This document shows, in pieces, positions 4,702 through 43,277 of a stretch of DNA of 43,464 bases. A program made the translations under genes and the position numbers. How positions within the stretch are numbered: position 1 is the first letter of the stretch; each line of letters begins with the position of its first letter. The stretch is taken from the NCBI GenBank assembly GCA_023231475.1, contig JALJEE010000636.1, forward strand, positions 1-43,464. Direction: 5' to 3'. The stretch is from Seison nebaliae (lineage: Eukaryota > Rotifera > Pararotatoria > Seisonacea > Seisonidae). The notes under the pieces were generated by a model. It was given only the letters and a program-made list of their open reading frames with translations. It ran no database searches and was not told the DNA's origin.

Positions 4702-5829
4702 TCAAGTCCGTTTCGGTTTCATTTCATTCATACATGGTCGAATGTAAATTCTTGTCTTGTTTTTATTCGGATTGAAATGTTCGTAGCCCTAAAATAATAA
4801 GTTGATGTGAAATAGAAGGAAAAGATAGGAGATAACTTTTGACCAATCGTAACCAGAAGCGAAAGCTAAAACTCGACCAGAAGGATCGATTCCACATGCC
4901 GTTAATGGTTGATCATGTACTGGATCCGATCCCTTCAATTTTGCACGTGCATCTTTATCCCATAAATTGTATCGTCCATCTGAACCAATAGTACAGAAAG
5001 TGGATGTCAATGGATGGAAAGCGACACCATTGACCGCATATAAATGAATGTTCCGATCGTCGATAGTATTTCGATGACATTTGAAAGTAAAACATCCTTT
5101 CTGATTTGAAGGATCAACTAATTGAATAGCCATTCTCGCTTCGATACTTCCCAAAGCATAACCGATGGGATTCATTCGAGTTTGTGGAGATTCACGTGGA
5201 TCACAAAATATGGAAATACATCGACTTTGCATTCTCAACGGTGTTTGAATTGATGAATGTAATGTGGGTCTGGGATCCATATTAATGACGTGAATCTTCT
5301 TATCACTTGTCGCTACTACTCCCATATTATTGATGGCATCGGCACAATATGATTTACCTGACAAATTCAACGTTTCTAAGGGTTGGGGAGATCTTAAATC
5401 CCAAAATTTGACAGTTTGATCCCATGATGTTGTCATTAGACAATTGAATGTCGGTCGTTCTATCCAATGAACTGTACGGACAGGAGCTTCATGTTTCGCC
5501 ACTTCTACTAACTGATTGGATTGTAAGTCCCAAACTCGGCCACTAACGTCGCTTCCAGCGATGAAGATTTTCGTGCCATCATTATGCCAATTACAATGGA
5601 GCATCGGAATATTGGAGGGATTTGAGATCGATGATTTGGGGATGACTTGTCCATTTAAATTCAATTCCCATACACGAACATCTCCCGCCCATGACGTGGC
5701 CGCCATAAATAATTGATTCTCATTATAAGGAGAAAAGGAGAGTGAAGAGACTGTGTCTTCTGGAGCATTAGCCACTTCTATATCTCCTTCATTCGGATTT
5801 TTCGTTTGAGCGACTGTATTATTAAACAT
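4702..5829 (-). CDS. RAE1: RAE1 (Gle2) mRNA export factor, WD40 protein
   Basis: Two coding exons, 4837-5829 and 4702-4788, joined by a 48-bp intron with a GTT donor, give 359 residues (human RAE1 has 368). The protein is a WD40 propeller that binds nucleoporin NUP98 and acts in mRNA export at the nuclear pore and in mitosis. Family-typical stretches are present: DIEV near the N-terminus, SWAGDVRVWEL, TSWDQTVKFWD, YCADAI, ALGSIEARMAI, FTFKCHR, YAVNGVAFHP, GSDGRYNLWDKDARAKLK and YDWSKG followed by EHFNP. The final exon supplies GYEHFNP and a basic end. A 43-bp intron (5832-5874, GTT donor) just before the ATG lies in the 5' UTR, which supports the start at MFNNTV over an earlier ATG within it. 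Confidence 0.95.
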
Positions 5830-5875
5830 TTCTAATAGAATAAAAAATAGTCGATTAGTATCTTCACAAATAACC

Positions 5876-6620
5876 AATATGTCTATCTAAATTACAAAAG
5901 AAATATGAAAAGACATTTTTATTTTGGCTTTGTAAAATTGGGAAAGTTTCATAATTTCTTTTATTTTTACGCAATTCCCTTCACTCGTTTACAGAGCTTA
6001 AATTTAATATTACCTAAATTATCATTCTTTAAGAATTTCTTTAACAAACTCCATTTACCAAAGTTATCATTAAATATAAACAATTTCAAAAAACTATAAA
6101 GAAATATATTTTCTAATACATATTATTATAAATTATTACATTATGTCGTTTAAATTTTAAATAAAAAATTTTGTATTACAAATTTATAAGAGTTGAAAAT
6201 ATTCTGATTACAATGTAAGTTTAATATCATTTCTCGAAATTCTCCAAAAATAATTGTAATTTCCTGCTACTACATATACACAAAATTTAAATTGTTAAAA
6301 AAAATGATTTGGGATCCATTATACTTATTTTTTCGTATTAGAATATACTTATTAGATGTAATAACAAATTAAAATTTCATAAATTTAGTTATTCAATATT
6401 GAATATATTTGAAACAATTTTGAATGAATTTTGAAGACAGAAATATATTTAATATTATCGAGATTGTAGTGAATTTCAAATTTAATCGCTTCTTTTAAAT
6501 TTCAAAAATTGTAATATTTAATCAAAATATTTAATCATTTAATTTTTAAAAAACTCATAGTTCGGGCGTTAAATTTGAATTTGAATCTTGTTCAAGTGAG
6601 AAGACAATTCATTTAACAAC
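5876..6620. other. AT-rich intergenic spacer
   Basis: Spacer between the divergent RAE1 gene and the snoRNA host gene. It contains only short AT-rich open frames and no recognised element. Confidence 0.6.
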
Positions 6621-6628
6621 TATAAAAA
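6621..6628 (+). promoter_or_regulatory. TATA-box candidate of the snoRNA host gene
   Basis: TATAAAAA at the right distance upstream of the first likely exon of the snoRNA host transcript (start expected near 6650). Position and sequence only; no other promoter element seen. Confidence 0.4.
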
Positions 6629-6896
6629 ATAGGTTACATCCATGTTACTTATAACATGTGTATTATTGTAGCACATGTCTATTCTCAAGTTCCTAGTAAA
6701 CATTAGTTAGTTCATTTCATTTCTTATCAAATAGTTACTTTGTAAGATTTAACAATGATTGTTTCGTATCTTGTAAAAAAAGATATTTAAAGATTTGTAT
6801 CTTTAATTCATTCCAAATATGGGAGATTATTGAGATGAAAGAATTATCGTGGTGATTTATGTCGTTAGTGTTTTTCAATTACGAATATTTAGATTA

Positions 6897-6971
6897 GTTT
6901 TATGATGAAAAAGTTCTGGAGTTACCGTATGATCTCATATGATTCCAACTGCGGCTATATGTCTGAAATTA
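6897..6971 (+). ncRNA. Box C/D snoRNA, copy 1 (18S 530-loop guide)
   Basis: Box C ATGATGA at 6902-6908, guide CTGGAGTTACCGT at 6916-6928, D' box ATGA at 6929-6932 and box D CTGA at 6963-6966. Bases flanking C and D can form a terminal stem (TAGTTT with AAATTA, one wobble). The guide pairs over 13 bases, two of them wobbles, with the conserved 18S rRNA sequence GCGGUAAUUCCAG. The fifth base upstream of D' selects the U of GGU, which by alignment corresponds to Um627 in human and Um578 in yeast, the site of SNORD65 and snR77. Target assignment is from memory of the rRNA. Confidence 0.75.
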
Positions 6972-7127
6972 TAATTATTGATTAATGATACATATTATTC
7001 TTATACAATTTCATCAATTCCCTCTTCAATTCTTTTCAGATATATTTCGGCCATTTAATTTAAGATATTGTTTTCGATCGCATGAAGGAACGTTGTTAGT
7101 TTTTTTTATCTCATTTATACTTGTAAT

Positions 7128-7207
7128 ATGTTGTGATGAAAATAAATACTGGAGTTACCGTATGAATATGTTAATGATTCGAAATATGGCTAAATTTACT
7201 GAATTGA
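7128..7207 (+). ncRNA. Box C/D snoRNA, copy 2 (18S 530-loop guide)
   Basis: Box C GTGATGA at 7133-7139, the same guide CTGGAGTTACCGT at 7149-7161, D' box ATGA at 7162-7165, a C'-like AATGATT, and box D CTGA at 7199-7202. The stretch between C' and D is unlike copies 1 and 3, so only the D' guide is under constraint. The terminal stem is weaker than in the other copies. Confidence 0.75.
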
Positions 7208-7373
7208 AATTTTTAAAAATTTTACGAAATTATTCTTCAAACAACTTTTATTCATAATTTTATTTTATTTTTATAGATTGAATAAGAATTCTCGACTTTG
7301 GATGTTTATTCTGATTAAATGCCAAATTGTTTACTTCTATGTTAGTTTACTTTCTTATTAATATTATTGGAAT

Positions 7374-7453
7374 TTGTGTGATGAAAAACAATGACTGGAG
7401 TTACCGTATGAATATGTTGATGATTATACAGTTCGGCAGAAAAAACTGATTTA
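7374..7453 (+). ncRNA. Box C/D snoRNA, copy 3 (18S 530-loop guide)
   Basis: Box C GTGATGA at 7378-7384, guide CTGGAGTTACCGT at 7395-7407, D' box ATGA at 7408-7411, a good C' box TTGATGAT shortly after, and box D CTGA at 7446-7449. AATTT before C and AAATT after D form the terminal stem. It is the most canonical of the three copies; spacing from copy 2 is about 245 bp and between copies 1 and 2 about 231 bp. Confidence 0.78.
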
Positions 7454-8005
7454 AATTAAGAAAAATTTTATTTATAAATCTCTTTCATTTCCTGTTTGAT
7501 GGTTAATTGATTTTTCCTTTTTTTCTAGATTTTTATCGATGAAATCGATGGTAGTGGTATTAATGGAAAATAAGTGACTGTTAGTGGAAATTTATTTCAT
7601 GAATTAGTGATACTATCCTATTATCGAGTATATTCTTAAACCTTATTCTTATTTATTACGGAGAAATAATCAATAAATATTGATCGATTTTTATACAATT
7701 TTCTTCCTTTTCCATTTTTCAGATTTTGTGAAGGAAAATGTCTTGGAAAGGAATATATATATATATGGAATAACGTGAAACAACTTCCACTTGGTCCGGT
7801 ATACGATATATGAAATTAATCTTTTATATTTTCAACAACTTTTAACAGAATAAAAATTATGATTCTTTATTGATAGTGTGCGTGATATCCTTCATTATGC
7901 ATTCATGCAATCTGATATGTTCACATCATCGTCTATTTAGGAAGAGAATAACTTTAAGCTATTAGTTGTCCATGTCGAGAGAAAGATGAAAGGAGATTAC
8001 TATTA

Positions 8006-10200
8006 ATGTTGTGGAAGAAATTCTTAAAATTTGTTAGTTCAAAAATAAAAAAATATTTCAATCGGAAAGAAATGGAATCGTCATCGATGAATTTTGATGG
8101 TTATCCACTCCATTATGAATCGATGAGTGCCGTGGATGATGAAGTGAAGAGGAGAAATCATTTGATAGACAATCTGATGATAGAAAGTCATTTGGCATAT
8201 CCCATCAGCAAATACATTTCAAATTCATTAAACGTTTTTTCCAATTTGTAATTTGTTAAGAAATAAATTAAATTTTGAAAGAAACCATTTGAAGAAATAT
8301 CATTGTTGCTGAGATTTAGAACAGTAGCAAATTTGATTGTCATGTTATTGAGATTCGTCCAAACAATTTTAGCATACGCGAAGTTGATTCTCCTTTTCAT
8401 CTTCTTCATTAGTTTCATTCCATTTCTTAGACGATATTCACCAGATTTCGATAGTAAAACTTTCTCTATCGTCGGTCAGGATGTAATGATGACGGAAGTG
8501 GATAATGTATTAATCTTAGGCAATAATTTGACATTTAACGCGAAATTTTATCGAACCGATCCTCAAGTTCGAGTTTTTCATTTTCTCTTTTAACCGTTTT
8601 CCGATTGTGAAGTCCGTTTTCGATGACCATATTTCCCACGTCTTATCAATCGCTCCATGTCTCAGGAATGAGATTGACAATCATTTGTCATATGAAAATC
8701 TTAAAAAAATTTCATCTTTCAATCATTATCCCGAATTCATACAACGTCGACTCTCCAAAATTGTTTCACTTCAAAAGTTCATTTTTTCTTCTCATTTTCA
8801 AATTCAAAATTTTCAAATTCTCATTCAGATTAAATCGTGGACGAATCGTTCTGAGAGAGGGTCATGAAGCTGATTCATTTTATTTCATTAGTTGTGGTAA
8901 AGTAGAAGAGAGTATTAGTAATGAAAATGGAGAATTGATAGTTACCAGAATTTTGAAATCAGGAGATTATTTTGGTGTTTGAATTTCTCTAAAAATTTCA
9001 AATTAACATTTCTTTCAGGAAGAAGATGTTCTGATGAAACGTCGACGTCAATATACTCATACGACGTTGAATAATGTCGAGTTGATTGTGGTGAAAGGAG
9101 AAGAGTATGAGAAATTATTCATCATTCCATCACCAGTCGTTCGAACGGATTTGTGTTCGTTACACACAATTTATTTATTGGAAGAAAGAGAAAGGAGTAA
9201 ATCGAAAAGAATTGATGGTTTTGGACGAAGAGTGAATGAAAGGAAGAAATCTTTTTATAGTTATTCGTCAAATTCATCAGGATTTTCAGTCAATTCTCTC
9301 ACTGATTATCAAGAAGTTCCTGATTATTTGAAATATGTCAAGTTGATTTATCTTCCAATTATTTTTATTGATAAATAAATATTTAAATATAATCGATATA
9401 AAATTAGAAATTTGAAATATTTCAAGAAACTTCCATTAGAATTATTCATTGAAAATCGCGAGAAATTCTATGTTAATTATTACAAGTTAAGAAAATTTCA
9501 ATGAAAATTTTCCGTTTGATCGTTTTCTTTCTAGAAATGATTGTATCATCAATTATGATGTTTTCTCATCGAAATTCATTTATCTTTTGAGAAATGGAAA
9601 TGGTCGAATTATAAAAAAATGTGATAATTTCAGTGAAGAAACATCAGCGTGGAAATCGGCGTCAACTACAACAATTGAAGATCCGTCAAGATTAGAACGA
9701 TTTCCTTTTTTCGTTAAATTAGCAAATGTTTCATCTCATCAATTAATAGTTAAAATTTTTTAAAATTTAATTTTCATCTTCATAATAATTTCTTTCAGAA
9801 TATTCATGATATTTGTTACGAGGAAACTGATAGTCCAAAATATGAGAAATGCATTTTCGTGAGTGAAGGATGTTTGTGCATTCTAGTGGAGAAGTCGTTC
9901 CTAGCTCAACATTTCGACACAAATATGAGAGAATTATTAAGGGCTGATTGTACACCTCTTCCATTCCTCTACGAATTCAACACTTCATTACGAGAAATTG
10001 TTGACTGGAAAGTTTACAAAGAAGATTTCATGAAGAATTGTCAATTGACGAAAAATTTAGAGAAAAGTAAATGTCCGAAGAAATTAATCCGAATTTCTGA
10101 TATTGAGACGATGTTAGTTACTAACAATAATTTATCAATTTGGAAACAGAGAGAATTGGAAAGGAAAGCAAAAGAGAAATTATCAAATGAAATCAAATAA
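8006..10200 (+). CDS. CNBD2: Cyclic-nucleotide-binding-domain protein, CNBD2-like
   Basis: Eight exons (8006-8233, 8282-8566, 8613-8776, 8829-8976, 9019-9341, 9408-9485, 9535-9748, 9799-10200) encode 613 residues; all seven introns begin GTT and are 42-66 bp long. A basic N-terminus and a hydrophobic stretch in exon 2 are followed by a cNMP-binding fold across exons 3 to 5: YPEFIQRRLSKIV, then REGHEADSFYFISCGKVEE, SGDYFGEEDVLMKRRRQ and ELIVVKGEEYEKLF. The SFYFI and GDYFGE stretches are typical of CNBD2, a protein needed for sperm flagella in mammals. The canonical phosphate-binding Arg-Ala pair is not obvious, so nucleotide binding is uncertain. The C-terminal third is family-specific and lysine-rich. 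The start is the first ATG after an in-frame stop. It converges with ATR, with 188 bp between the stops. Confidence 0.75.
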
Positions 10201-10388
10201 TGAAATTTGTATTCATAAAAAATTTTAAAGAATAATTATTAACTGTATAAGAAAATATTGAAAAAATATCGATGAAAAAAAAAAGATGAATTTTTAACAG
10301 AAATTTAACATAATTTTTTTTAATATTTTTCTCATCATCACAATTGAATTGTTGATTAGAATAAATATAAAATTTTTTTTGTAATCCA

Positions 10389-13300
10389 TCATATGAATGG
10401 TGCCCATCCATGGAACATTTTACTTAAATTGTCATAACTCGTCGCTTCGTCGATGAGATGTTGAATTAACTTTTCTGATGGAAATTCGATTGATGATAAT
10501 TGTTTATCTATTTTTCCATTTAATCGATTCTCTACATTCGTCACAAATTCTTTCGCTAATTCATTGCCAATCGTTGCGACATTATTCGTTTGATTCCTTC
10601 CTTTTTTACTCTTCCAACCGATACAAGGATCATAAATAAACGATCGAAGAATCGTTAGAATTGCGTCGTCATTCTTTTCCATCAATTCAAATGTTCGTTC
10701 AGCTGTCGATCGAAATATTCCGTTATAACCCGTACATCCAAAAGCGTCCACTAAATTATGTGTCAAACGAAATGGAACACATTCCGGTACGGGTAAATCA
10801 TTTGCCTTTAAAAATGAAAAATAAAAAAATGAGAAATTTGAAAAATAAAAAAATGAGAAATTTAAACGGCATTAAACATACAACTAAAATCCACATGAAT
10901 CACTTGACCTGTCACTGTATCTAAGAGAATGTTGGCTAAATGACGATCGCCCAAACCACCGATATATCCCATAATCGAAGTAACCGCACATGTATAAGTG
11001 AATCGACAACGGAATGAATACCATTTTTTCGGATCGTCAAATAATTCGAAAAACCAAATCGGTAATTGTGAGGGGAGGAAATGTGGGAGAACTTTCGTCA
11101 AAAATTCTATTTTTCTTTGTCTTTTTTTTAGTTAAATTTTTCAAATGAGAAATTTTATTAGAAAAATAAAATGAACTTTTCAGGTTTTCGTTCCAAATCC
11201 GTCATTCGCATAGCTCCGAAACTTGTCGCATTTGGTATTCCTACATCCAAATATTTTGCGTCCAAAATCGTTTTTAACGTTTTCAAATTATAGATCCATT
11301 CAATTAATCCCGAATTATGATCTATAAATATCACAGCCTTTCGAATATAATTAAATTTATAAAAATTTTTTAATTTAATTTCATTTAACATAGACACGGA
11401 GTGAGAGTGCTCGTTTTCGACATTCATCGTCTCGTTGGAAGATTTCATTCATCATATAATTCACTTCGATTTGACGATGATCCGTTCGAATACCTTCATC
11501 TTTCTTACATAAATAAGCGTACTTGTTTCCGTCACTCCCAATAAATTTGATACGTTTCGGTCGAGCTAAAGACGAAAGGACACTAAACTTTTGATGAAAA
11601 AATCGAGAATTAAAAATTTGAATAATAAAATTGTAAAACTTTCTCTTCGACTCCATTTATATAAATGGGATTACTTAATGGATGTGTCAATTGATGGAAA
11701 TTAGGAATTATTATTTCCGGTAGCCAACTAAAAAGATGGAAAAATTTGAAACAAAAATTTGAAAGAAAAATTTTAGAAAAAATTTCCAACGAAAATTTTA
11801 GAAAAAATTTTATAATAAATAAAATAAAAAATAGAATATTTAGTATAGTGTGGAATAAAACCTTCGGTTTAATGATTTGTAAATTTTTCCGAATTTGACT
11901 TCCATCGAGAATTGTCGCGCAGCAATATCAGATATTGCTAGTTGTTTCAGATGTTTACTAATCTCATAAATATTTAAATGTTCTTGTTTGATTTGTGGAT
12001 GTTTTTGTCTTTAGATAAATTAGGAAAATAAAAGAAAGTATTGAAGAAACTAACATTAATTTGGTGAGAATTGATTGTTGTCGAGTTTTGATGAGGGTGA
12101 TCTTCGAATAATTCAAACTGACACAAAGCCAAAGAGTTTGTTGTGTCATTTCTTTGTATAACTTTAAAATGAAATGATAGAGAAGAATTTTGAGAGGTTT
12201 GAACATTTATGAAACTTTCGACATATAAATTGCAATCACTTCAAAAACTCGATGTAAGGGGAATTTGAAGCGAGAATTGAGAATGGAAACTGAATGGATA
12301 ATTGTAGTTGATGGTATTGAGTCGATTTGTTTCAAGAAGATATCACGACAATCAACGAGAAATTTGTATTGAGGGAAATTTATTAATCGTTGTTCTTGTC
12401 CTTTCAAATCCATAACGAGCGTTTCTTTCAATAATACATCCGTTTCTAATTTCTCCTGAATGAATTCTTCGGCGATTTGGAAGAAGATGTTGAATGCTTT
12501 CATAATACAATCTTTAGCGAACGTATCTGATGTGATGGATAATGCTTCACAATAATTTTTTATTCCATTCAAATAATATGTACTTGGAATTAAAATAGAA
12601 ATTGTGAACAAAAGGAAAAAAAAATGAAACTATTTCTCATCTTTACAATCTGATTCTTCATAAATTCGTGCGATCTTCTCGTGATATTTAGCAAAAATAT
12701 ATTTCGTCTCAACATTCTTCCGATCCATATTCACTGCCGATTCATATCGATGGAATACTTCATCGAAATGACAATTGGACAAATTACTCATATAATCACC
12801 AAGGAGAATGTGAATCTATTTTAAATATTATTTAAAAATACAATTTTATTTGAGATTATTTGTAAACTTGAGAAATTTGTTTGGAATATTCTTCATCTTT
12901 TAACATTTCTTCTGTTATCTCCTTCTCGATACGTCCCAATTCATTTTTCAATAAACTTATTGCTTCATTTTTTTTATTCTGAAAAAATTGAATAATTTCT
13001 AATTTTAAAGAAATTTTTCAAAATAAAATGGAACTTGACTGAAATAACATTTGGCGATTAGAATTGATTTTTTCAAGAGAATAATTTTCGAATCCGATCT
13101 GATATTTCTCAATTTTTTTAAACATAATTCCTGATGATTTGACAATCGATAACTTTCACTTAATCTCAATTGTGTTTCACCTAACTGAAATTGAATGAGT
13201 TGACTAGTCTCGTTCGATTCTCTCAAACAAATGAGAAGACATTCATGAACATTTAATATCAATTGTCGACTATACATAGAAAGTGGGAGATGAGAAGATC

Positions 13301-18672: not shown

Positions 18673-19461
18673 ATGACTTGGAAAATTAGTGATTGTCGTA
18701 AGATTTATGGAATTGGTAAAAATTTCGTGTTAATATATTATTTAAGTTATTGAAGTTAATTTGAACGAAATTTACAGAGGAAGTCCGAAGGAACTGAGTA
18801 AAGAAACACCTCCACCTCCCATTATATTTATGAAACCAAATACAGCATTGATTGAGGAAAATGAAAAGATAAAAGTTAATTTATAATTTAATAATTGTTT
18901 AGTGCGAATTTGATTAGTTGCCGAATGATTCGATTGAATTACATCATGAAATCGAACTGGGTGTTATTATTAAGGAGAAGATTCCATTCAAAACATTTGA
19001 TGACAGATCAATGAACAAATACGTTAAAGGATATGTACTTGCTTTAGATATGACGGATAGGAATGTTTTGAAGAGATTATTAGACAATTCCCATCCTTGG
19101 CTATTAGCTAAAGGTTTCGATAATGGATGTCCCGTCTCCAAATTTATCGATTATAACAAAGTTAGATACCATACAATATGTTTATGATATAATCATTAAA
19201 AAGATTAAGAATACGAACAACGTTCAATTAAAGTTAAAGATCAATGGGAAATCACAACAGGATGGAAATACAGAATGTATGATCTGGAAAGTGAAGGAAT
19301 TAATGAAATATCTTAATCAATTCTTTACTTTGGAAGCGAATGATCTCATTCTCATGGGAACACCCGAAGGAGTATCTGCAGTAAAAAGTGGAGACGAATT
19401 ATTTGGTGAGATGTACGAGGATAATAAATTAATAACTTCAATGAAATTCTTTCTTGAATAA
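18673..19461 (+). CDS. FAHD1: FAHD1-like acylpyruvase / oxaloacetate decarboxylase
   Basis: Four exons (18673-18728, 18778-18874, 18918-19160, 19204-19461) give 217 residues; human FAHD1 has 221. Family role: a mitochondrial fumarylacetoacetate-hydrolase-fold enzyme that cleaves acylpyruvates and decarboxylates oxaloacetate, using Mg2+ or Mn2+. The metal ligands are visible as HHEIELGV (two Glu) and ALDMTDRN (Asp). Other family stretches are FMKPNT, PWLLAKGFDNGCPVS, DGNTECMIWKV and LMGTPEGVSAVKSGDE. The lid segment GKNFVGSPKEL keeps the Glu of the catalytic His-Glu dyad but has Ser where human FAHD1 has the His (GRNYADHVRE). That change depends on the intron 1 acceptor; using an earlier AG adds about eight residues and still no His. 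All introns begin GTT. Confidence 0.9.
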
Positions 19462-21002: not shown

Positions 21003-21117
21003 AATTATATCGATAATTTACCATAAAGAATATATTTATTAATACCGAAAGATTTTTGAATTAATTTGTGTTTCATATTTTTTAGAAATTGTTTCGTATC
21101 GTGCGCACCATTCTTTC

Positions 21118-21225: not shown

Positions 21226-21333
21226 ATGTATACTGTGTTTTACTTATTTTACTTCAATTTTAGAGGAATCATTCCAATTCATGACAGGAGTCGGTTCAAA
21301 TCATGAAACTGACTTTTTATGTTTCTGCTGTTC

Positions 21334-21490
21334 GAAGAAAATCAAAGTCTGCGTGACTCTTTTGTCCCATGGCTGTCTTTTCCGTGGCTCTTTTGTCCGG
21401 GGCTCTTTTGTACCGTGACTGTTTTTTCCGTGGCTATTTTGTACCGTGGCTGTTTTTTCCATGGCTATTCTGTACCGTGGCTGTTTTTTC
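21334..21490 (+). repeat. Minisatellite, second copy of the GTGGCTCTTTTGTCC family
   Basis: The leader GAAAATCAAAGTCTGCGTG is followed by about nine diverged units (CTCTTTTGTCC, CTGTTTTTTCC, CTATTTTGTACC types). Leader and unit are the same as at 171-297. Upstream, TATACTGT and TTTTACTTATTTT are also shared with 133-156, so the repeat is a dispersed element and not two independent arrays. Confidence 0.85.
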
Positions 21491-21494
21491 GGTA

Positions 21495-30319: not shown

Positions 30320-31976
30320 ATGCAAATTGATAAAGAATGGATTTTCCAAAAAACAGGACTCTCCTCAGAGAATAGCGGTTTGGTCTAGTTTCTTCGAGTT
30401 TCACTTTACTTTTTTCAATGTAGAAAATGTCAAGTGTCTTTCGTTGCCTGGTTCTTATTTGGAGAAGATTGAAGATTTAGGACAGTCGCTAGAATCGTTC
30501 TCTCGCATAAAAGAATTGGACCTCTCAAACAACTCCATCCAAAATTTGACAGTTTAATATTTTCTATTTTATTTCGAAAATTCATTGGGGGGAAAAGTCT
30601 CTTGGTAGTTTGGAATATTTAGAGAAACTAAATTTATTTTATAACAACATCCGTCATCTGAATGAAATAAAGAAATTAAATAAATTGAAAAATTTAAGAG
30701 AACTCGATTTGCGATTAAATCCAATTAACACATATGACAATTTATATCGGAAGAATATTCTTCGCTTAATTCCTTCACTTCAACTGTTAGACAATCGGGA
30801 AGTTACGAAAGATGACCGAATATTTGACGAAGAAGTTGATGAATTACTGACAAAAAATAGTAACAAATGGACCTCAAATGAGAGTAGTTTAGGAAAATAT
30901 GATAATTTATCTCCGAAAGTATTAGAATTGGAGAAAAATGATCAAAAAGAAAATTCGATGAGAAGGGACGACATCAAATCGTTTCCAACAGAACGTCAAT
31001 TTGCTCCGAAAATTCCATCAAGAAATCCAACTGATAGCATTACTGATTACGATAATATTAATTTCATGACAATTGAGAAACCATCGAAGCATGAACGAAA
31101 AAAATTGGAGAACAATAATAATTTGTCAAAATATCAACGATGTAAATCGTTATATGATATCAATTATCGACCACATTTGTCAAATGTACAAGTAGTTTCC
31201 ACTAATCAAGATAAGAAGTTAAATGACGAAATATCAAACCAATTCACCTCAAACACTTTAGAGAAAACTGATTTAATAGATAGATCATATCGAATGACTA
31301 ATGGAATTTCAGATGATTCTTATTCAAATAATTTTTCATCAAGATATGACAATTCCCCATCATTCCATGAGAAGGATATTAATGGAAATGTTCTTCATAT
31401 CGATACATTAGAAAAAGATCGAGATAACCACCAGTCAATGAATAATCATTTGAATGATGATATTGAACATGATTCCTTTAATTCTTTTAATACGGAAAAT
31501 AGTGTTATCAAAATAATTTCCTTAATCGATCGATATTGGAAAGGAACAAACAGTCTCAATTCAAATCCTTCATTCATCAGTTAATATTATAAATTAATTT
31601 ATATTTTTAAAATTTTTTTTTAAAGATAAATTGGAAAAAGTTCTTCGACCGTTTGAAAAGCATGATCAAAATTTCAATGCATTTGATGTGCACAGAAATC
31701 ATTTGAATGATAATAATAGTTCTTCTCAATTATCAGCTTTCTTCTTCATTTTTCTAGTTATATCATTGGAAAACGAGAGATTAAAAAAAGAAATTGAAGA
31801 ATTAAGAAAAAAGTTGGAGGAGTCGAAGAAATACTCGAAACTTTCAACTATGTTGGAGGAGAGTCATCAGTTAGTAATTGATAAAAACGTTGAAAATTTA
31901 ATTCTGCTTCAGATCTTTAATCTCAACTAATGAACATTTATTATCCCAACTACTTCATTTTCAACGAATGAAATAA
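30320..31976 (+). CDS. CEP72: CEP72/LRRC36-like leucine-rich centrosomal protein
   Basis: Six exons (30320-30377, 30424-30551, 30598-31579, 31626-31718, 31758-31869, 31913-31976) encode 478 residues. CEP72 is a centriolar-satellite protein that recruits gamma-tubulin complexes and CEP290. The N-terminus carries leucine-rich repeats (VKCLSLPGSYLEKIEDLG, IKELDLSNNSI, LEKLNLFYNNI) and the LRR cap RELDLRLNPINTYDNLYRK, all with CEP72 spacing. A low-complexity Asn/Ser-rich middle follows. Near the end IISLIDRYWKGTNSLN matches the conserved CEP72 LVDRYWNGSGSL block, followed by a coiled coil (LENERLKKEIEELRKKLEES). All five introns begin GTT; the fourth is 39 bp, a multiple of three without a stop, and is called an intron because it would otherwise insert AFFFIFLV. 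The last splice replaces an early stop with a coiled-coil tail ending FQRMK. Confidence 0.88.
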
Positions 31977-32433
31977 ATTTTCGATGTAGAATCATCAAAC
32001 ATCCATTTAATGACAAATAATGACAATGTTTAAATGTTAAAATTTTTCCAGTTTTTTATCGAAAAATTTTTTTTTCAATTATTTTTTAGGAGAAACTTTT
32101 TTCGAGTTATTTGCATAGAATTTATTGTTGAATAAAAACTGTGAAAGAAATAATGAAATTTTTTCTTATTTTCCTGATGCAACAAATATTTTGGGGAAAA
32201 TGAAGTTTTTAGGAAGGGGTTGTACTTTGGCGGTTTGTTTGACGATTCGTTTAAATGATTTAAGGCGATTAAAATATTGGAAAATGATGAGAAAGCACAA
32301 CACATGTAAACTGATAAGGAAAACCGAGATAGAGAAAAGCGAAATTGAATTGAAGCAAAACGATTGCTATGAGATTTCAATACTTTTCTTTCAAAAATAA
32401 AAGAATAACAAGAGGCATTGAATGGCAGGTGAA
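31977..32433. other. Spacer between convergent genes
   Basis: AT-rich 3' region between the CEP72-like and NUP43-like genes. Open frames of 91 and 138 codons on opposite strands overlap each other and the NUP43 end; neither resembles a known protein. Confidence 0.5.
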
Positions 32434-33579
32434 TTAGCTGGTGGAGAAGGAATTTGGTTGTTTGCACGAAATATTTAAGAAATGTACACAATTGTTATCA
32501 GTTGCGGAGATAAGTTTATGTTGGAGGAATGATGAACATTTTACATCGATCGAATTAATAGCGAGTGGTAAGGGAGGAATCAGATGTGACGGTGTAACAG
32601 TTGCATCTCCAATTTCCCAAATGAAAAGTAAACCATCTTCTCCACATGAATATAAATGGTCGGAATTAGCGAAACAAATATCCCAGACACAATCCTTATG
32701 TCCATGAGAATTATTTGTACCGAGAGTGGTGACAGGTAAGTCCAATTGTCGAATGTCGAATAAATGGATGGGACCGGTCATTGCTGCTACAGCCATTAAA
32801 TTCGAATTAATTGGATGTACATCGAGTTTAATAAATGCATCTTTTATAATATTTCTATCCAATTGATGATATTGATTTGGTCGATGGAATTTTTCACTAG
32901 TTCTTTGTCGTTTATCAAAAACTAAAATATTTCCGTCATTATTTACACCGTAAATGATGAAATTATTATCATTTGAATAATGAATGTCGTTAATGGAACA
33001 AGTACATTTCACACCATTCTCATCATTCTCTTTCCATTCGTGAATAACATTTCTTTGTCGAAATAAATCTAAAACTTTTACTTGACCGTTCACTCCGGAA
33101 CAAACTGCCGTATCCTCCACCAATGGAGATGTGGCAATCGCTTGAACACAACAACCTTTCATCATATTAAAATAATATTGATCATCATATGTGAGTGATC
33201 GATCGACATTTTCAAATGAGAATAATTTTGACCAATAAGAAATCGTATCGATAACTCCTGATCCGTTATCACCTTTTCCAATGGAGAACAAAGTAACCGA
33301 ACCGTTCGTTGAACCAGTAATACAAAAATCACCATTACCTAACCAATTCATACATCGGACTCGACCTGAGTGTGAAGCTGAAGATAATTTATCAAGGAAT
33401 TCTTCATTTTCACTCATCTCCCACAATGTCACTTCACTCGCCTCCGTCCAACTACCTGTTAATATTCTCCTCTCATTCAGCTTTGGAGACCATTTTATTT
33501 GATGAATTATATCTTTCGTTGTATTTGTTTGCACTTTGTTAATTTTAAAGAAATCATTCCCACCACAATCCTCCTCCAT
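32434..33579 (-). CDS. NUP43: NUP43-like nucleoporin (WD40, Nup107-160 complex)
   Basis: A single exon of 381 residues (human NUP43 has 380). NUP43 is a WD40 propeller in the Y-shaped Nup107-160 scaffold of the nuclear pore and at kinetochores. Family-like features: an N-terminal RRILTGSW block with EVTLWEM, CITGSTNGSVTLF, VCSGVNGQVKVLDL, VHPINSNLMAVAAMTGPIHL with FDIRQLDLPV, CVWDICFANSDHLYSCGEDG with LFIWE, and the C-terminal pattern LPLAINSIDV matching human LSVNTLDV. Overall divergence is high, and a different WD40 protein cannot be fully excluded, but the length and the conserved last blade favour NUP43. Confidence 0.75.
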   Translation of the reverse strand: MEEDCGGNDFFKINKVQTNTTKDIIHQIKWSPKLNERRILTGSWTEASEVTLWEMSENEEFLDKLSSASHSGRVRCMNWLGNGDFCITGSTNGSVTLFSIGKGDNGSGVIDTISYWSKLFSFENVDRSLTYDDQYYFNMMKGCCVQAIATSPLVEDTAVCSGVNGQVKVLDLFRQRNVIHEWKENDENGVKCTCSINDIHYSNDNNFIIYGVNNDGNILVFDKRQRTSEKFHRPNQYHQLDRNIIKDAFIKLDVHPINSNLMAVAAMTGPIHLFDIRQLDLPVTTLGTNNSHGHKDCVWDICFANSDHLYSCGEDGLLFIWEIGDATVTPSHLIPPLPLAINSIDVKCSSFLQHKLISATDNNCVHFLNISCKQPNSFSTS

Positions 33580-34968
33580 TGAACAAAGAAAAACAAATTG
33601 ATGTCAAATGAAAAATTATGTGATCGAAATAAAAATCACATTTGATTGATTATACTCTGTAATTCAACTAAAATACAACACCTTTCTTTATCTGTAATGA
33701 GAAATAAAGAAAAGAAAAAATTCTCATCAAAAATTATTTTTACGAACTTTTCAATTTTCAAATGTTAAGCTTAATTCAAATTTTCACTATTTCCAATCAA
33801 GAAGAGACGATAAATAACAACATGTTTAAATTCATCATTAATGTGCATGGGTGAAGATTAATGTGTGGATGAAATACATTTCCATACAATAAATAGTAAA
33901 TTACAATTAAATTGTCAGTTACAATTTCCATACGCTAACTACTTCATTTTCTAATGTTTGTGTCATTTCATCCAAAGTTTAAGTAGTAATATCGATAAAA
34001 TATGCATACGCACTTCAACTTCCATTCTTCGTACGAGTCTGTATGTATGTAAATTAGAATGCTAATTCAATTATGTCAGACAATGAAATTATTGGATATT
34101 GTTCTCTTCGTTGGTGATGTTGTTGAATGGAGTGAAATTCGAATAAGACAAAGCTAAAATTTTGAATTAAAATTTTTTTTTCTCTCTTTCCCCTTTCTCG
34201 TAATCGTTCCATTTGTTTATTAGGAAAGTAATTCACCAAGAAAATAATCAATACAGATATAAAGCTTTCTTTCATTGAACCAACATACGGAATATACACG
34301 ACTTTTACTTTTCGAATACAGCTTTATTAATCTCTTTTATTTTTCTTTTATTTCTATTAATCTGTTTAACTGTTCACATTATATTGTTCTCCCTACCCAA
34401 TAATAATGCTTCATGTGCAAATATATGTAGAGAAGAATTAATATATTCATTCTCCCTCTCATTTCGGCATACGGGAACAGATTGATTTCTATCTTTCTAT
34501 CTTCCACTCCTCAATTATTACTACAGAAAATGTGGTGGGTAGTATCTGTCTTTCTTCCCTAACCATTCTCTCATTATGTGGATAGAATTCGAATAAGACC
34601 TTCTTTCAACACCAATTTATTGAATAGACATCAAACAAATTTTCAATTTATTTATTACACTCCACTAAATGTTACATGTCTTCAATTCCCATTCACATAA
34701 AAGCACACTTATAGACGCATATGTCAGAGTTATTTGAGGATTTATTAATTTTTTTATTCGAATTAATTTCATTCTGTCGGAAAGACCGTACGTTAAATTG
34801 TCTATTAGATTAGAGGAATAAATTGACAAGATCTTCTTTTGACTTTCCTCTTCAATTACATCAACTTGTCTTTATAAATTCTTCTCATTTTATTTCTGTA
34901 TTCTCCCAACAAACTTCATTCCTTCACTCATAGACATTTTGTGCGTGTGTCTTTCATTTTGAGGCACG
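33580..34968. other. Long spacer upstream of casein kinase 2 alpha
   Basis: 1.39 kb of AT-rich DNA with no supported gene; it should contain the divergent promoters of NUP43-like and CK2 alpha. CTTTATAAATTC at about 34870 is a possible TATA-like site about 100 bp before the CK2 ATG. Confidence 0.5.
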
Positions 34969-36546
<1,578 letters not shown>

Positions 36547-36724
36547 TTCATTGAATGACATAAATAATTCTTTTATTAATTTCTCTATTGGAAAATGGAA
36601 TTACTTCATAATATTTTATTAATGACTTTTGGCTATTCCTTCCCACTCTCTACAATCACGTCACCTGATAATTTGAATAATTAACATAATTTGGAATGTT
36701 TGGGAAATTGTAAAATTATTCATG

Positions 36725-36870
36725 TGGGATATTTCGCACATGGGAATTTATTCATCTGGGACATTTGGTATATGGGAATTGATTAATTTGGGACATTTGG
36801 TCAATTGGAAAATATTAATTTGGGACATTTGGTACATGGGAAATAATTAATTTGGGACATTTTACAATTA
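36725..36870 (+). repeat. Degenerate tandem repeat, about 38-bp unit
   Basis: About four copies of a unit like GGGACATTTGGTACATGGGA followed by AATTNATTAATTT. It lies 180 bp downstream of the CK2 alpha stop codon. Confidence 0.75.
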
Positions 36871-37798
36871 ATTTTATTTGGCATTTTACAGATGCAGAAA
36901 TGAGCCGTACAAACGAATCTGTAAAATAATTCTTGTTATTTCGTATCATCAAACGTCTATGTATTTGATTTTTGAAGATTTAGTAATTTTTTGTTGGAGA
37001 AGTATTGAAAAATATTTTGATAAAATAAATTTTTTTCTTCAAATTTTTTATTTCTCTCATTTCTTCCTGAGTCTCGTTGACATTCTTTTCAATATCAGTC
37101 CTCCTTAAATTTGCTTATATTCTCGATTACTGTCCGCTTCTTAAAACGAATTAAATTATCTAACAGTCTTTCACCAAATTATTATTGTCAAATAAAAATT
37201 GTCAATTTCCTGATAATTATTAAAGGCTTGTTTATGAGTTAGATAGATAATTTAATTCATTTTCAGCACTACAATCTAATCATGTTTATTTAATATCATT
37301 TCCTTTAAATATCTCATATGTAAATAAGTGTTTAGGAAGGAAATTTCTCGTTTTGACCTTTCCCCTTTGTCCAACATCTACATGTTGAGTAGATACAACA
37401 ACAAACAGAGTACAAGTCGTCTCTGTTGTGAGTTCATGTATATATCTGTTCTAATATAACTTTAAATTTATTTGGAGAACATGAATTTTATTAGTAGATA
37501 ATCAATCAAGAGTAGATAAATACTTAGAAAGTGGGGAAAGTTTTTAATAAATTTCCTTCACGCAAACACAAACAATCTCATCTTTTCCTACTTACAAAAA
37601 CGATCTAAACATCCTTCGAATTTTTATTAGATTTTTAATGGAAAAATTTTAGGGAAATTAACGAAATTATTCCAAATAAAAACGACATTAATTTGTTGAA
37701 GAGGAATTGCCTCTATCGTTCTAATTCGGAATTCTTATGCTCCTAAATATGATATTACTATGACAATGATGCATCATTAATGCAATTCATCTTCCAAT
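36871..37798. other. Spacer, nothing recognised
   Basis: AT-rich. A 76-codon plus frame (36878-37108) runs out of the tandem repeat and looks like chance. Confidence 0.5.
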
Positions 37799-39940
37799 AT
37801 GATACGTATTTTCAAACTATCCAATATTTCCTTTTACCTTAAGGAACTATTAGAAAAGATTGGATTTCCTTTCAAAATAATTGTACGTCCAAAGAGAATA
37901 TCATATTATCTTCTAACTATCATCATATTAGTAGTGTTGTTGAATTATTATAATTATTCATCAGTCAATCATATACACATTTCCCACTTATCAGAACATG
38001 GTTAATTTCCGTAATCTTTCTCGTGTTTAATTTACCGTCATCGTCTAGAATTTCCATGTATCAATAACGAAGAAAGTTGTTGTTTGCCTCAAATGAAAGA
38101 ATATGATAAATTATTCAATCATCTTCTTATCAATTTAAGATCTACTTCCAATTGTCCATCTTCAAAACCTCCTCCAATTCAATTGATTCATGAAAAATTT
38201 ATTTATAATTATCCATCTGATTGTCGATTAATTGAAGTTATTTTTAAAATTATATATTAAAATATCAAAATTTTTAGATAACTCAAAATAGTAAAGATAC
38301 TTTCCAGTACAAAAGGTCAGATGGAAAAAAATATGAAAATTATCAGGAAATTGATTGGAATGACTGGGAGCGAATAGAAAATGGAAGTAGAATCAATGTA
38401 GAATCGGAAGTGATTCAAATTGAATGCAAGAAGAGAAGCCAAATAATTTTCCATAAAATCTTTCCAAATATTTATAAAAAATTCAATCGACGAACTCATA
38501 GGAAGGATGAAAAGAAGTCAAATATTATTTTATTAGGAATCGATTCGATTTCCCGATTGAGTTTTCGAAGATATTTAAAGAAATCTTTCAATTTTCTAAT
38601 GAAAGAATTAAATGGAATCGAATTTAAGAATTATCATCGAATAGGTAAAACTTCGATATCGAACATATTTCCATTATTAACCGGTTATTCTACACGAAGT
38701 GCATCTTATAAAAATTATTCAAAAAATTTAAAATTTGATCAATTTCCATTATCTTTTTTCCAACTTTTTACCACATCTCATTTCACTTTATATACCGAAG
38801 ATTGGCCTCGATTCAATACATTTAACTATCTACAAAATGGATTTGAAAATGCTTCGTCTATTTTTTCATTATATTTCCGTCCTTTCTGGTTGGCGGTTGA
38901 GCGAGAACATTTATTAAAATCTCAAAATTATAATTGGCACGAAAACATCATTCGACCAATTCAAAGTTTTTTCAATGATAAACTTCAACGCTTCACCATG
39001 ATTCAACCAAGTTGGCGTGAACATTGTTATGGAAATCGATGGAAATTCCAAATCCATTTCAATATCGTTTTGGAAGCGCTACATCGTCTTCGAGAAGAAG
39101 ATTTAGGAAATGGATTATTTTTCGCATTCCTCAACGAAATAGCTCATGAATATCCATATGCTGTTCAATTAGTCGATGATCATTTATTGAAATTCCTTAA
39201 AGATTTTAAAGAAAATAAATTCCATCAAGACTCTTATCTCATATTGTTTAGTGATCATGGTAGTAAATATGGAAAATTTCGAGAAACATATCAAGTTTTC
39301 TTTCTTTCCTCTTTTTACAATATCTCATGTTTAATTAAAGGGATTTCTAGAAAGTTTACTTCCCACATTAATTATCGTTCCTCCCAAAAATATTGAACAA
39401 GAAAAATTGGAGAATTTGAAAAATAATCAAAAATTAGGAAAATTTCTTAATCTTTTTGACGTCCACGAGACTATGAGGGAATTACTCAATGTCACAACTT
39501 CAACTACTCGAGACGTTATTGGTACTTCATTAATATCGAAACTCATTCCAGTTCAACGACAATGTGCCAATTTCTCTATTGAACCATCTGAATGTGCATG
39601 TCAACGCATAATGGAGGAAGATTACCAGAATTGTCAAAATATTAAATTGACAAAATTATTAAAGACGATTCATTTAGATTTTGGAAGAAAATTGATTGGA
39701 AGTCAATGTAAGAAAGTGAAGTATCGATCTATTCAAATCGAACATGTGAAATTCCTTCCTAAAAAACAAATTTGGTTAATGATAGGTAAAGTTTCGAATT
39801 TGGATATTCTCTTCGAAGTCCAATTGACTTGTCATCAGTTTTATAATCGGTTACCATTGACCATTAATCGCATAAATAAATATGGTAATAATTCCTGGTG
39901 TACTAATAATTATTCGTTGAAACATATTTGCGTGTGTTGA
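37799..39940 (+). CDS. DUF229 membrane-anchored alkaline-phosphatase-fold protein
   Basis: Four exons (37799-38000, 38049-38236, 38278-39294, 39341-39940) encode 668 residues; the three introns begin GTT. A short basic N-terminus is followed by one membrane span (YYLLTIIILVVLLNYYNY, about residues 40-58), so the bulk faces the lumen or the outside. DUF229 (Pfam PF02995) is related to sulfatases and phosphatases and is common in nematodes and arthropods; substrates are mostly unknown. Visible landmarks: the nucleophile region ILLGIDSISRLSF, FPLLTGYS, YTEDWPRFNTFNYLQNGF, FRPFW, HEYPYAVQLVDDH and the metal site FSDHGSKYG, then GFLESLLPTLIIV and the conserved FDVHETMRELL. All expected metal-site residues are present, so it may be catalytic. 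The C-terminal part is Cys-containing (SECACQRI). Confidence 0.92.
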
Positions 39941-40086
39941 GAATGACAATTGTTTTTTTTTTAATCCAATCACTTTTTATTACGATCTCTTATAATCTTT
40001 AACATAACAATGTTGGTAAGCTAATGGTTGGTGCTAACAAAATGGTTATCAATAAATTTAACGACCTATATGACAAGTTATGAAAA
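39941..40086. other. Short spacer before the inverted-repeat element
   Basis: 146 bp of AT-rich DNA between the DUF229 stop and the element; no signal seen. Confidence 0.4.
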
Positions 40087-40378
40087 TATAGGGTTATTCA
40101 TTTGGTTATAGACCTTTATTCGGATTTTGAGGACTTTAATTTATTTCATTCGGACTTTTATTCATCGGATATAGATTTCTATTCATCAACTAAGGACAAC
40201 TGGTCATTCAATCTGGATATCTATTCATTTTCTAACGACTAATATTCAGTATTAATAAAGACAACTATTCATCGTGAACGGACTACTATTCATCCCTTAT
40301 GCACCATTATTCTTGTCATCCGGACTTAAAGTCCTCAAAATCCGAATAAAGGTCTATAACCAAATGAATAACCCTATA
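40087..40378. mobile_element. MITE-like element with perfect 53-bp terminal inverted repeats
   Basis: The arms 40087-40139 and 40326-40378 are exact reverse complements over all 53 bases (outer ends TATAGGGTTATTCATTTGGT). The 186-bp centre contains six or more loose copies of a GGACAACTATTCATC-like motif in about 22-bp steps. There is no coding capacity. This is the structure of a non-autonomous DNA transposon or fold-back element; the lack of any mismatch between the arms suggests recent movement or gene conversion. No convincing target-site duplication is seen. Confidence 0.85.
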
Positions 40379-40906
40379 ACTCAAACTTCTTTTTACCAAT
40401 TTATTAGTAGAAAATTTTTAAGAATCCTATCAAGATCTTTCTCAATTGACAAACATTCATTAATTATATAAAATTATATTTGATTATTATAATTAAATTT
40501 TGTTCATTTATTCGAAAATTCTTTTTATATTCCAAAAAAAAAATAAAAAATTATTTCTTTTTATTATAATAAATATTTATAATCGTAATTACTTCTATCT
40601 AAAATTCTTTCTATTTGAAGAATTATTATTGATAAAAAATTAAAAAAATATTTTTTTGAGAAAAAGTTCGAAATGTCGAACATATTATTAAGAATTGACT
40701 ATGGAAACACAACTGAAATAGAATTGGGTGACTTGATTGATTTTTAGATAAGGAAATTGTTTAATAAAAATTTATTATTAGATTAGATTATTAGAATTCA
40801 TTGTAAAATGTTCAGATAAGAGATAAAATTCGAACAGTTTTTCAGATTCATAAAATATTCGGACAATATTTTTTCCTAAACTCTTTTCATTCACATCAAC
40901 ATTATC
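40379..40906. other. AT-rich spacer upstream of the C2-domain gene
   Basis: No gene or repeat recognised. Confidence 0.5.
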
Positions 40907-43277
40907 ATGGAAGAACGTCATAGTACTCATGCTTCGAGTGACGTGCCGAAAGCTGAATTTGAATCGTTTAAATCATTTCGTTTGAAACGGAAGAATAATC
41001 AGGATAATGGAGTACTACCGATATCATATGCAGGTGAATCATTTGCTCAGTTGATAGATTTGAAGATAAAAATGAGTCAACAATTGAAAGATATTCAAAC
41101 ACGACTCTATGATTCCCCACCATTCGGATCGAACGAACGTTTAACAAAACAATTTAGGAATAGTCTGGCTCCTCTCTTTCTCACACCTTCGATAACACCA
41201 GAATTTGTCATTCCGCCCACATTGAAAACATTGCAAGATAGAATCTCTCTTCGATTTCCAAATCATTATCAACCGAGATATGCTTTTCGGGATGAGGAGA
41301 AGAATGATATAAAAATTGATGTGAGTAAAATTTTGACAGATGAAAAAGAAGAGATGAAAAATGAAGAAATTGAGGGAAATCAATTGAAGATAACATCATT
41401 TGTTCGATCGATTGGTCGTATGATTGGAAGTCGAATTGGATCACATCGAGCTTCTGAAGTAGAGACGAGAGACGTTATTGCTTTGAATACGGAGAATGGG
41501 AAACCGATAAATTTTCCAACGATTCATGTAACTGAATGGAAGAATAAGAATAAAAATGATGATAATATGGATGAATCACGTAGTATGATTATGTCATCAA
41601 ATGGAGATAATTTAATGGATCAATTAAATGTAAAAAAGAAATTTTATTCTTTACTCGACGTTTCCACACATCTCTATCAATTGACATATTCAGGAAATCG
41701 AGATCGATGTGAAACAACGAAAGAATTTCGTCAAACGTCCAGATGTTCACTTTGTGAACATACTGGTATTGGTCAGACGATAAAGAAATCTATTAAACGA
41801 AATCGACCATTATTCAAATTCCTCATAACACCACAACTACAAATTTTAGATAAACCGATTTTGTTCAAATGTTTCAAAAATGATTCATCACTCAATCAAA
41901 TTTCATCTTTGATCTCTATCGAATTAGATATCGGAATCGAATTGAAATGTATCAATTTCGACAGTTTCGTAGCAACACAACATTTCGATTGTTTTAAGAA
42001 AAGTTGTTTCGTTCGTTTATTACAATGTCGTCATTCGATTTTATCGGAATTAATACCCAAATTACTAGTGATAACATTCGAACGGAAATGTGTTCCTCAT
42101 AAGAAGGGTAGATTGGAACGGCAAATTTTCGCTTTACCAAATGCTCAAGATTATTGTACTCAGAAATTTCTGATTGATAATGAGAATTATCTCTTCTCCA
42201 ACGATTTAATGGCAAGATTCGATTTGATTACTGAAGATACGATAAAATTTTCAAAAATTTTAGTCGAACTCGTTTTCTTCAAAGAATTAAAACAAACAAA
42301 AGTGAACACATCAAATTGTTCAGATTCGGAGAAAAATAAATTTGGCGGTTCTCCCTTTTCTATTTATGATATGGAGAAAGAGAAATCTTTCTTTTCTGAA
42401 ATGCATCATCATCGACAATGTACTTCGTATGGACAATTTGATAAAACTTATCAGAATTATATTCGACGATTGGAAGACATTTTAGAAAATAATTTAATTG
42501 TCGCATCAACGACAGTTCCATTAATGGAAAATAAAGAATATGGGTCAACTATTCAATTAACCAAAAGTAATCGTCATATGTTCATTACAAAAAATTCGGA
42601 AATTCGTTTTCTTTCCATTAAAAATGTTAAATTTTCTCCATAAATTTTTCTTTCTAATTTTCAATTTTTTCAGACATCTCTCGAATTGATGAGAGAACAT
42701 TCGATTAGTAATAATAAACGATTTACTGATTCTACAACCTGCACCATCCGTTTATGTCGTTTCAACACTTTCATTAAAATTACGAAAATTTATATTTCAA
42801 ATTTAAAGAAACATCTAATATATGGAAAACCAGGTTCCGTATATTTTTTCGTCCTTTATTCATTCTTTTTTAGACACATTCCTCTTGATTCAAATTTATC
42901 ACAACAGAAAATTCAGAAACGAATTTCAAACATCTATTTGTATGGAAACATCGTCACCGCAATGGAGAGATGATATTTTAATTCCGATACAAAGTTTCGT
43001 TCACACAAAAATCGTCGTCAAATTATATGATTGTACGGTGACTAATATATTGTGGAAGAAATCGGACAGTATCGATGCAAGCATCTTGAGAAGAATTCGA
43101 AGGAAACAAATTAATTTAAACGACGCTCAGAAACTTTATAATTTCGGAAGAATTATCAAAGAGAAAACCGCCCTATTCTTAGGACAGATCAATATCGGAA
43201 AATCAGTACTCTCAAATCTATCACCTTGTAAGGCAGATAATAATATTTTGGAACTAACTAAAATATTAAGGAATTAA
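40907..43277 (+). CDS. C2-domain protein of uncertain family
   Basis: Three exons (40907-42625, 42674-42833, 42874-43277) encode 760 residues; both introns begin GTT. The last 190 residues contain a C2-like fold: ITKIYISNLKKHL, TFLLIQIYHNRKF, then TSICMETSSPQWRDDILIPI and TKIVVKLYDC, ending FLGQINIGKSVLSNL. The SPQWRDD block is the classical NPxWNE site of C2 domains, but the calcium-binding aspartates are not all there. A Cys pair in SRCSLCEHTGIG and further cysteines in the middle could bind zinc. The N-terminus (about 300 residues) is charged and probably disordered. The C2 block has weak similarity to the ciliary protein CC2D2A, but the rest of that protein is missing, so I leave the family open. 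Confidence 0.65.

Follow-up and report, generated by a model that had tools for sequence, protein, structure and literature searches.

What marks the start of an intron in Seison nebaliae? The question is raised by a 43,464-nucleotide stretch of DNA from this tiny marine animal (Seisonidea, Rotifera; family Seisonidae), hereafter the window, in which an earlier note, made from the letters alone, counted 39 introns in eight genes and claimed that every one begins GTT, from which it concluded that U1 small nuclear RNA (snRNA), or U6, or a donor-recognizing protein had changed in this lineage. Few eukaryotic sequences are regarded as more fixed than the donor-pairing end of U1. Judging from the genomic sequence, S. 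nebaliae very probably rewrote one position of its 5' splice site, with donors and U1 evolving together and a U1 of the old type being kept. T stands at intron position +3 in 44 of 49 introns, from 17 genes, whose borders are forced by protein homology, and among the four U1 genes found, three have A as base 6. In part of a splicing code that normally hardly varies, both partners appear to have changed.

The genome searched comprises 36.0 Mb in 846 contigs, of which the window is contig C204; beyond the window, the sample takes in a first 20 stretches of this genome (19 measuring 10 kb, one 8.2 kb), a further five of 10 kb each, and loci found through family searches. Introns were placed by a custom protein-to-DNA aligner, which requires GT at the start of an intron, or GC against a penalty, and AG at its end, and which is blind to +3. 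Its references were PDB proteins, one match from a protein search, or human proteins written out without a database record. The margin of an intron is the aligner score lost when the chosen donor is forbidden, and a margin of at least 5 was needed for retention. The raw output, 67 introns from 19 alignments of 18 genes, was reduced to the 49 by dropping 10 in-frame open gaps that are possible insertions (5 GTT, 1 GTA, 1 GTG, 1 GTC and 2 GC), two introns in poorly conserved ATR sequence (GTT at 12050, GTC at 11899), five introns with a margin below 5, all GTT, and a PI4K2 GTG that came from a reference without the linker. A PI4K2 rerun with the linker gave a GC border of margin 3 in place of that GTG, and was left uncounted.

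Within the retained set, T is found at +3 in 14 of 14 introns in the window and in 30 of 35 elsewhere. GTT makes up 41% of all GTN (241,702 bases), and against that background 44 of 49 has a binomial p of about 1e-12, introns being treated as independent. The earlier note had named a majority of GTA or GTG donors as what would speak against its rule; a purine at +3, as in the GTR donors of U2-type introns (R, A or G), occurs in only 3 of the 49. The GTT pattern is real and runs through the whole sample, but the five exceptions turn the note's 'every' into about nine in ten. These exceptions (a slash marks the exon-intron border) are IFT172 AAG/GTATAT, with a margin of exactly 5, peroxidase CCG/GTAGTA, PI4K2 AAG/GTGAAT, MAPKAPK2-like AAA/GTCTTC and U1-70K GAA/GTCGAA; they look real, and all three GTA or GTG introns seen have G at -1. 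Two further figures of the note, G at +5 in about 6 of 39 introns and an exon ending in A in about 24 of 39, need correction to 12 of 49 and 26 of 49. A is the commonest base at -1 and G (16 of 49) the second; -2 is A in 29 donors.

The introns are of the major (U2-type) GT..AG kind, with T-rich 3' ends. Minor U12-type introns (donor ATATCC or GTATCC) are rejected on the donor motif, GTATCC being found in none of the 49, a statement about that motif only, as AT donors were excluded by the GT/GC requirement and minor snRNAs were not searched for. The retained introns are very short, with a median of 53 bases and 46 of 49 no longer than 75 bases, and positions +7 and +8 are T-rich (29 and 27 of 49).

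A second method, a hidden Markov gene finder whose training set was the long open frames of 32 sequences (311,450 bases), agrees on the donors. Started from a uniform profile, with no donor preference beyond GT, it called 71 of 89 introns GTT in the first pass and 84 of 92 after re-estimation of the splice profile. Started from canonical GTRAGT, it moved from 31 of 63 to 80 of 89, while the log-odds rose from 6821 to 7338. In a mode that looks at nothing beyond GT at the donor, with the acceptor profile as learned, 85 of 104 introns were GTT overall, 42 of 47 at margins of at least 2 nats and 17 of 17 at 4 nats or more. Like the binomial p above, this climb of the GTT fraction with border certainty shows that GTT is not there by chance. 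Eight of the 92 calls at the end of the uniform run were not GTT. Of the five compared with homology, three are upheld as non-GTT (IFT172, PI4K2 and peroxidase, the peroxidase border being 3 bases off) and two are contradicted (ATR and calcineurin-like). A run in which the gene finder could use any dinucleotide as donor was uninformative, with 6 of 68 introns beginning GT. When donors were left free in the aligner, AG always being required, all seven CK2 alpha introns and those of RAE1 and CLPX still started with GT; the outcome was mixed for FAHD1, PI4K2 and calcineurin-like, and no intron was placed in U1C. ATR and IFT172 stood outside these donors-free runs.

Does U1 match these donors? The Rfam U1 model finds four U1 genes, at 112.9, 112.4, 108.0 and 97.4 bits against a cut-off of 69.5 for RF00003, and all four cover model positions 1-166. 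Scoring covered 41 of the 293 candidates from a first look, so that four U1 genes is a minimum. Two of them, L001 and L002, lie 1.5 kb apart on contig C208, and L003 and L004 are on two further contigs. L001, L003 and L004 have A instead of U at position 6 (A6; AUACUAACYUG). The donor-pairing end of L001 and L003 is AUACUAACCUG and their 5' start AUACUAACCUGG; in L004 these are AUACUAACUUG and AUACUAACUUGG, with an additional change of C9 to U. The canonical end, AUACUUACCUG, is found in one gene of the four, L002, whose 5' start AUACUUACCUGG is the Rfam consensus. A genome scan for ATACTNACYTGGC returned the four U1 genes and one stray match, L035; this last is among five exact matches to the 13-base pattern, but cmscan gives no U1 there and we reject it as a fifth gene. 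A reversed control pattern had six matches, so that the 13-base pattern alone is no proof.

In standard numbering, the partner of U1 base 6 is position +3 of the intron, and that of base 9 is position -1 of the exon. The compensating change at the U1 5' end that the earlier note proposed to look for is indeed present: A6 is the partner of +3, and the change from U to A restores a Watson-Crick pair with the T there. L004, by its U9, can pair with A at -1; the C9 kept in L001 and L003 pairs with G at that position. Out of nine possible Watson-Crick pairs, the mean over the 49 donors is 4.20 for the canonical end, 5.06 for A6 and 5.27 for A6 with U9. The best-fitting 5' end is of the A6 type for 46 donors and canonical for two, with one tie.

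The A6 copies also look like snRNA genes, in features that are signs of such genes and no proof that they are expressed. Of 41 predicted pairs in a fold that the four U1s share, 15 survive two-sided change in one copy or more; 14 are disrupted or gapped in a single copy. The sequence AUUGCAC in stem-loop II, the U1A-binding motif, is kept in the three A6 genes and absent from L002. L001, L004 and the U5 gene carry an exact copy of a 3' box, AATTAAACTTT, which has one mismatch in L003 and two in L002; it lies nine bases downstream of the A6 U1s and twelve downstream of U5. One strand of about 248 kb, taken as control, holds no exact and 22 one-mismatch copies of it. An 18-base element upstream of U5 (at -78) recurs with one mismatch at -80 of L004, while the control has none within three mismatches. 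L002 (1501-1664), with no AUUGCAC and the weakest 3' box of the four, may, to judge from these features, be losing or changing its role.

U6 and U5 take over the donor after U1, and the earlier note had offered U6 or a donor-recognizing protein as alternatives to U1. The U1 part of that suggestion is borne out, by A6 in three genes and U9 in one. The one U6 gene found has an unaltered ACAGAGA, and a change in U6 is rejected as the explanation; the zf-U1 gene for U1C has retained the zinc finger, as judged against a human sequence likewise written out without a database record. The one U5 gene found has an unchanged loop 1, GCCUUUUAC. PRP8 is a single open frame of 2395 codons, and one U1-70K locus was found. 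One match to the METTL16 family was found as well, a family that also matches some bacteria. LUC7 proteins are said to influence donor classes, and humans have three LUC7 paralogues; one LUC7 locus was found here (G000:C540:21603-22771).

Could the pattern be something other than a change in donor recognition? One might think that the borders are wrong, with the real donors elsewhere and GTT an artefact of intron placement. Placement does rest on DNA and protein evidence, not transcripts, and some gene-finder calls depended on a profile that had come to favour GTT. Forbidding the donor, however, costs the CK2 alpha borders 12 to 104 score units, and they remain GTT with every dinucleotide allowed. 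The window's RAE1 protein is 100% identical to S. nebaliae SNEBB_008507, which implies the same GTT intron, and U1-70K as spliced by the aligner (three GTT introns and one GTC) equals NCBI SNEBB_005901 over 250 of 250 residues, so that NCBI proteins imply the same borders for both genes. We consider such an artefact very unlikely, and see no better prospects for the idea that T at +3 simply follows from the AT-richness of the genome and the extreme shortness of the introns, without being specially recognized. The G+C content of the sample is about 31%, GTT is already the commonest GTN, and +7 and +8 are rich in T as well. Against this, T falls from 44 of 49 at +3 to 20, 13 and 20 of 49 at +4, +5 and +6, the p value above already allows for the 41% background, and composition leaves the matching U1 change unexplained. 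On these figures we reject base composition as the cause.

A more serious alternative, which we nevertheless think improbable, is that the A6 U1s are silent or minor and that canonical L002 does the work, GTT donors being tolerated with a mismatch at +3 through exon pairing by U5 loop 1 or through proteins. L002 is present and scores nearly as well as the best A6 copy (112.4 versus 112.9 bits), and the A-rich exon ends, at both -2 and -1, could favour U5 loop 1. Splice sites have shifted without a change in U1 in Saccharomycotina (PMC10581693) and in Fritillaria borealis (PMC13326754), as far as the available passages of those papers go. What tells against tolerance is that the change at position 6 is common to three U1 genes that are otherwise much diverged, and that it fits the donors; an unchanged U1 that merely tolerated GTT would leave this matching change in three genes unexplained. 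The 3' boxes of the A6 genes are, moreover, closer to the U5 box than is that of L002, and AUUGCAC is missing from L002, not from the A6 genes.

Several observations weigh against a joint rewriting of donors and U1. A canonical-ended U1, L002, persists in the genome. Five of the 49 retained donors are not GTT (2 GTA, 1 GTG and 2 GTC), and in the two GTC donors +3 is unpaired with either type of U1. The upstream element of the U5 type was not recognized in L001, L002, L003 or U6, where 7 to 10 mismatches were counted. The evidence consists of genomic DNA and protein homology from one species, at the level of genes, and 11 of the 19 alignments used a human reference written out in its entirety without a database record. 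Finally, at E <= 1e-200 a search of public proteins for CK2 alpha yielded a nematode kinase and nothing from Seison, which leaves the seven CK2 alpha introns without independent support from public annotation.

By what path might donors and U1 have changed together? On a likely path, extra U1 copies would have let one copy mutate; introns would then have drifted to GTT under recognition by the mutated U1; and a U1 with the old 5' end would have stayed, perhaps for the few GTA and GTG introns or for tasks other than splicing. On this path duplication of U1 would have preceded the donor switch, L002 would serve the remaining introns, and the A6 U1 RNAs, whose genes we know from their sequence, would be made and used as working U1s. 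A more elaborate arrangement is possible, if rather doubtful, in which one major spliceosome employs three flavours of U1: A6/C9 for G/GTT donors, A6/U9 for A/GTT donors, and the old type for residual GTA and GTG donors. If true, a donor code would here have been naturally rewritten and later split up, through duplicated U1 genes and compensatory base changes.

How does Seison compare with other systems? With the canonical U2-type GT-AG system, with its U1 AUACUUACCUG, it has in common GT..AG introns with T-rich 3' ends, genes for U1, U5 and U6, the U6 ACAGAGA and U5 loop 1; it differs in having T rather than A or G at +3 of most donors, and A as base 6 in three of four U1 genes. In the open-licence PubMed Central literature we found no report that deals with splice sites in Seison or describes a U1 whose position 6 is A. 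The closest published cases report unchanged U1 ends, in the portions of the papers available. Fritillaria borealis is likewise an animal in whose genome most introns depart from the usual splice-site rule (PMC13326754). There, the passages at hand state, most introns break the GT/AG rule itself, whereas Seison keeps GT/AG and changes U1; the two U1 versions of F. borealis have identical 5' ends, and its authors say that the change did not come by way of a divergent U1, and propose U2AF paralogues and N6-methyladenosine. The Saccharomycotina resemble Seison in a switch of preference at a single intron position near GT, there from A to U at +4. In the excerpts available, U1 ACUUACC does not vary among the 236 species in which a U1 was identified, the switch accompanies loss of METTL16/SNRNP27K, and a U1 change of pseudouridine to adenosine is named as a possible compensation and was not found (PMC10581693). 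Seison, in contrast, has a METTL16-like family match and a changed U1.

Variant U1s beside a canonical one are known too. Human variant U1 snRNAs, paralogues altered at the donor-pairing end, are expressed and minor beside canonical U1, up to about 20%, in the passages available (PMC13172311, PMC5159530); in Seison the change is in the majority among the U1 genes found, and fits most donors. The diplonemid S. specki has a second U1 gene with an altered 5' end, a run of C, whose pairing to canonical donors is judged comparable to that of normal U1 in the text at hand (PMC12621601); no matching donor switch is described there, unlike in Seison. Earlier work on shifted splice sites sought compensating changes in U1 and, in the portions available, reported none (PMC10581693, PMC13326754), whereas in Seison both halves have changed. 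Seison offers a naturally occurring test of how a code used throughout a genome can drift. There is a practical side as well, in that exons of Seison, and perhaps of its relatives, will be misplaced by gene predictors that have learned GTR donors. RNA sequencing data of S. nebaliae, 22.9 million pairs, have been published (PMC8351084), in a paper whose available passages mention GENSCAN and Augustus and contain no donor analysis; those data make the donor rule directly checkable.

In the window we placed 30 introns in the eight genes of the earlier note, all GTT after one correction. Fifteen come from the splice-agnostic protein alignment (CK2 alpha, RAE1, FAHD1 and the ATR kinase region), 14 of them with a margin of at least 5. 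The other 15 (ATR, CNBD2-like, CEP72-like, DUF229 and C2) come from the gene finder, whose donor profile had learned GTT; eight of these keep their border without the donor preference and seven do not. Window positions, strand and evidence are as follows ("learned profile" means the gene finder with its learned profile only, and "kept" a gene-finder border kept without the donor preference).

4789..4836, minus strand: RAE1 intron AAA/GTTATC..TTTTAG/GGC, homology-forced, margin 86.5; NCBI SNEBB_008507 spliced alike
8977..9018, plus strand: CNBD2-like intron GGT/GTTTGA, kept, margin 2.3
9342..9534, plus strand: CNBD2-like intron CAA/GTTGAT, kept, margin 8.6
9749..9798, plus strand: CNBD2-like intron ATA/GTTAAA, learned profile; without the preference the border is 9728, also GTT, margin 0
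10806..10867, minus strand: ATR intron GCC/GTTTAA, homology-forced, margin 12
11121..11176, minus strand: ATR intron AAA/GTTCAT, homology-forced, margin 39
11338..11389, minus strand: ATR intron TAT/GTTAAA..CGAAAG/GCT, homology-forced, margin 23; replaces the gene-finder GTGTCT at 11397
11588..11639, minus strand: ATR intron AAA/GTTTTA, homology-forced, margin 26
11728..11861, minus strand: ATR intron AAG/GTTTTA, learned profile
12009..12054, minus strand: ATR intron AAT/GTTAGT, learned profile
12162..12215, minus strand: ATR intron AAA/GTTTCA, learned profile
12583..12630, minus strand: ATR intron ATA/GTTTCA, kept, margin 2.8
12816..12867, minus strand: ATR intron CAA/GTTTAC, kept, margin 3.7
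12979..13034, minus strand: ATR intron CAA/GTTCCA, kept, margin 3.7
18729..18777, plus strand: FAHD1 intron CGT/GTTAAT, homology, margin only 4
18875..18917, plus strand: FAHD1 intron AAA/GTTAAT, homology-forced, margin 67
19161..19203, plus strand: FAHD1 intron AAA/GTTAGA, homology-forced, margin 31
30378..30423, plus strand: CEP72-like intron GCG/GTTTGG, kept, margin 0.7
30552..30672, plus strand: CEP72-like intron ACA/GTTTAA (weak), learned profile; without the preference 30485-30608, GTC, margin 0.1
31580..31625, plus strand: CEP72-like intron TCA/GTTAAT, kept, margin 1.7
35064..35120, plus strand: CK2 alpha intron 1 GGG/GTTCTT, homology-forced, margin 104; GTT with donors free
35233..35289, plus strand: CK2 alpha intron 2 AAA/GTTTAA, margin 71; GTT with donors free
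35392..35451, plus strand: CK2 alpha intron 3 GTG/GTTTCA, margin 12; GTT with donors free
35563..35712, plus strand: CK2 alpha intron 4 AAA/GTTATA, margin 90; GTT with donors free
35797..35866, plus strand: CK2 alpha intron 5 AGA/GTTACA, margin 57; GTT with donors free
36080..36132, plus strand: CK2 alpha intron 6 CAA/GTTTTC, margin 90; GTT with donors free
36234..36278, plus strand: CK2 alpha intron 7 AAG/GTTTCA, margin 75; GTT with donors free
39295..39340, plus strand: DUF229 intron CAA/GTTTTC, kept, margin 0.1
42626..42673, plus strand: C2 protein intron AAT/GTTAAA, learned profile; without the preference a single GTT intron, 42606-42873
42834..42873, plus strand: C2 protein intron CAG/GTTCCG, learned profile

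The one correction concerns ATR, where the gene-finder GTG donor at 11397 is contradicted by homology, which puts the border at 11389. Without its donor preference the gene finder places 14 introns in the window, 12 GTT, one GTG and one GTC, the last being the donor at 30485 with a margin of 0.1 nat. Nine of the 39 introns first counted were not recovered. The earlier note lacked intron coordinates, so the comparison is by numbers per gene only: one is in the RAE1 5' untranslated region, four in the CNBD2-like gene, two in the CEP72-like gene and two in DUF229.

The window holds other features as well. Between 22711 and 26697 are two long open frames, of 322 and 463 codons, of a kind not recognized from the sequence alone, no homology search having been made. 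Three copies resembling C/D-box small nucleolar RNAs, with CTGGAGTTACCGTATGA in common, lie at 6890-7450, spaced as in the introns of a non-coding host gene; the third copy has a weak snR77 match (32.9 bits, below the cut-off), the only match in the Rfam scan of the window. Short repeats of the gtggctcttttgtcc type occur at 181-300 and 21350-21480.

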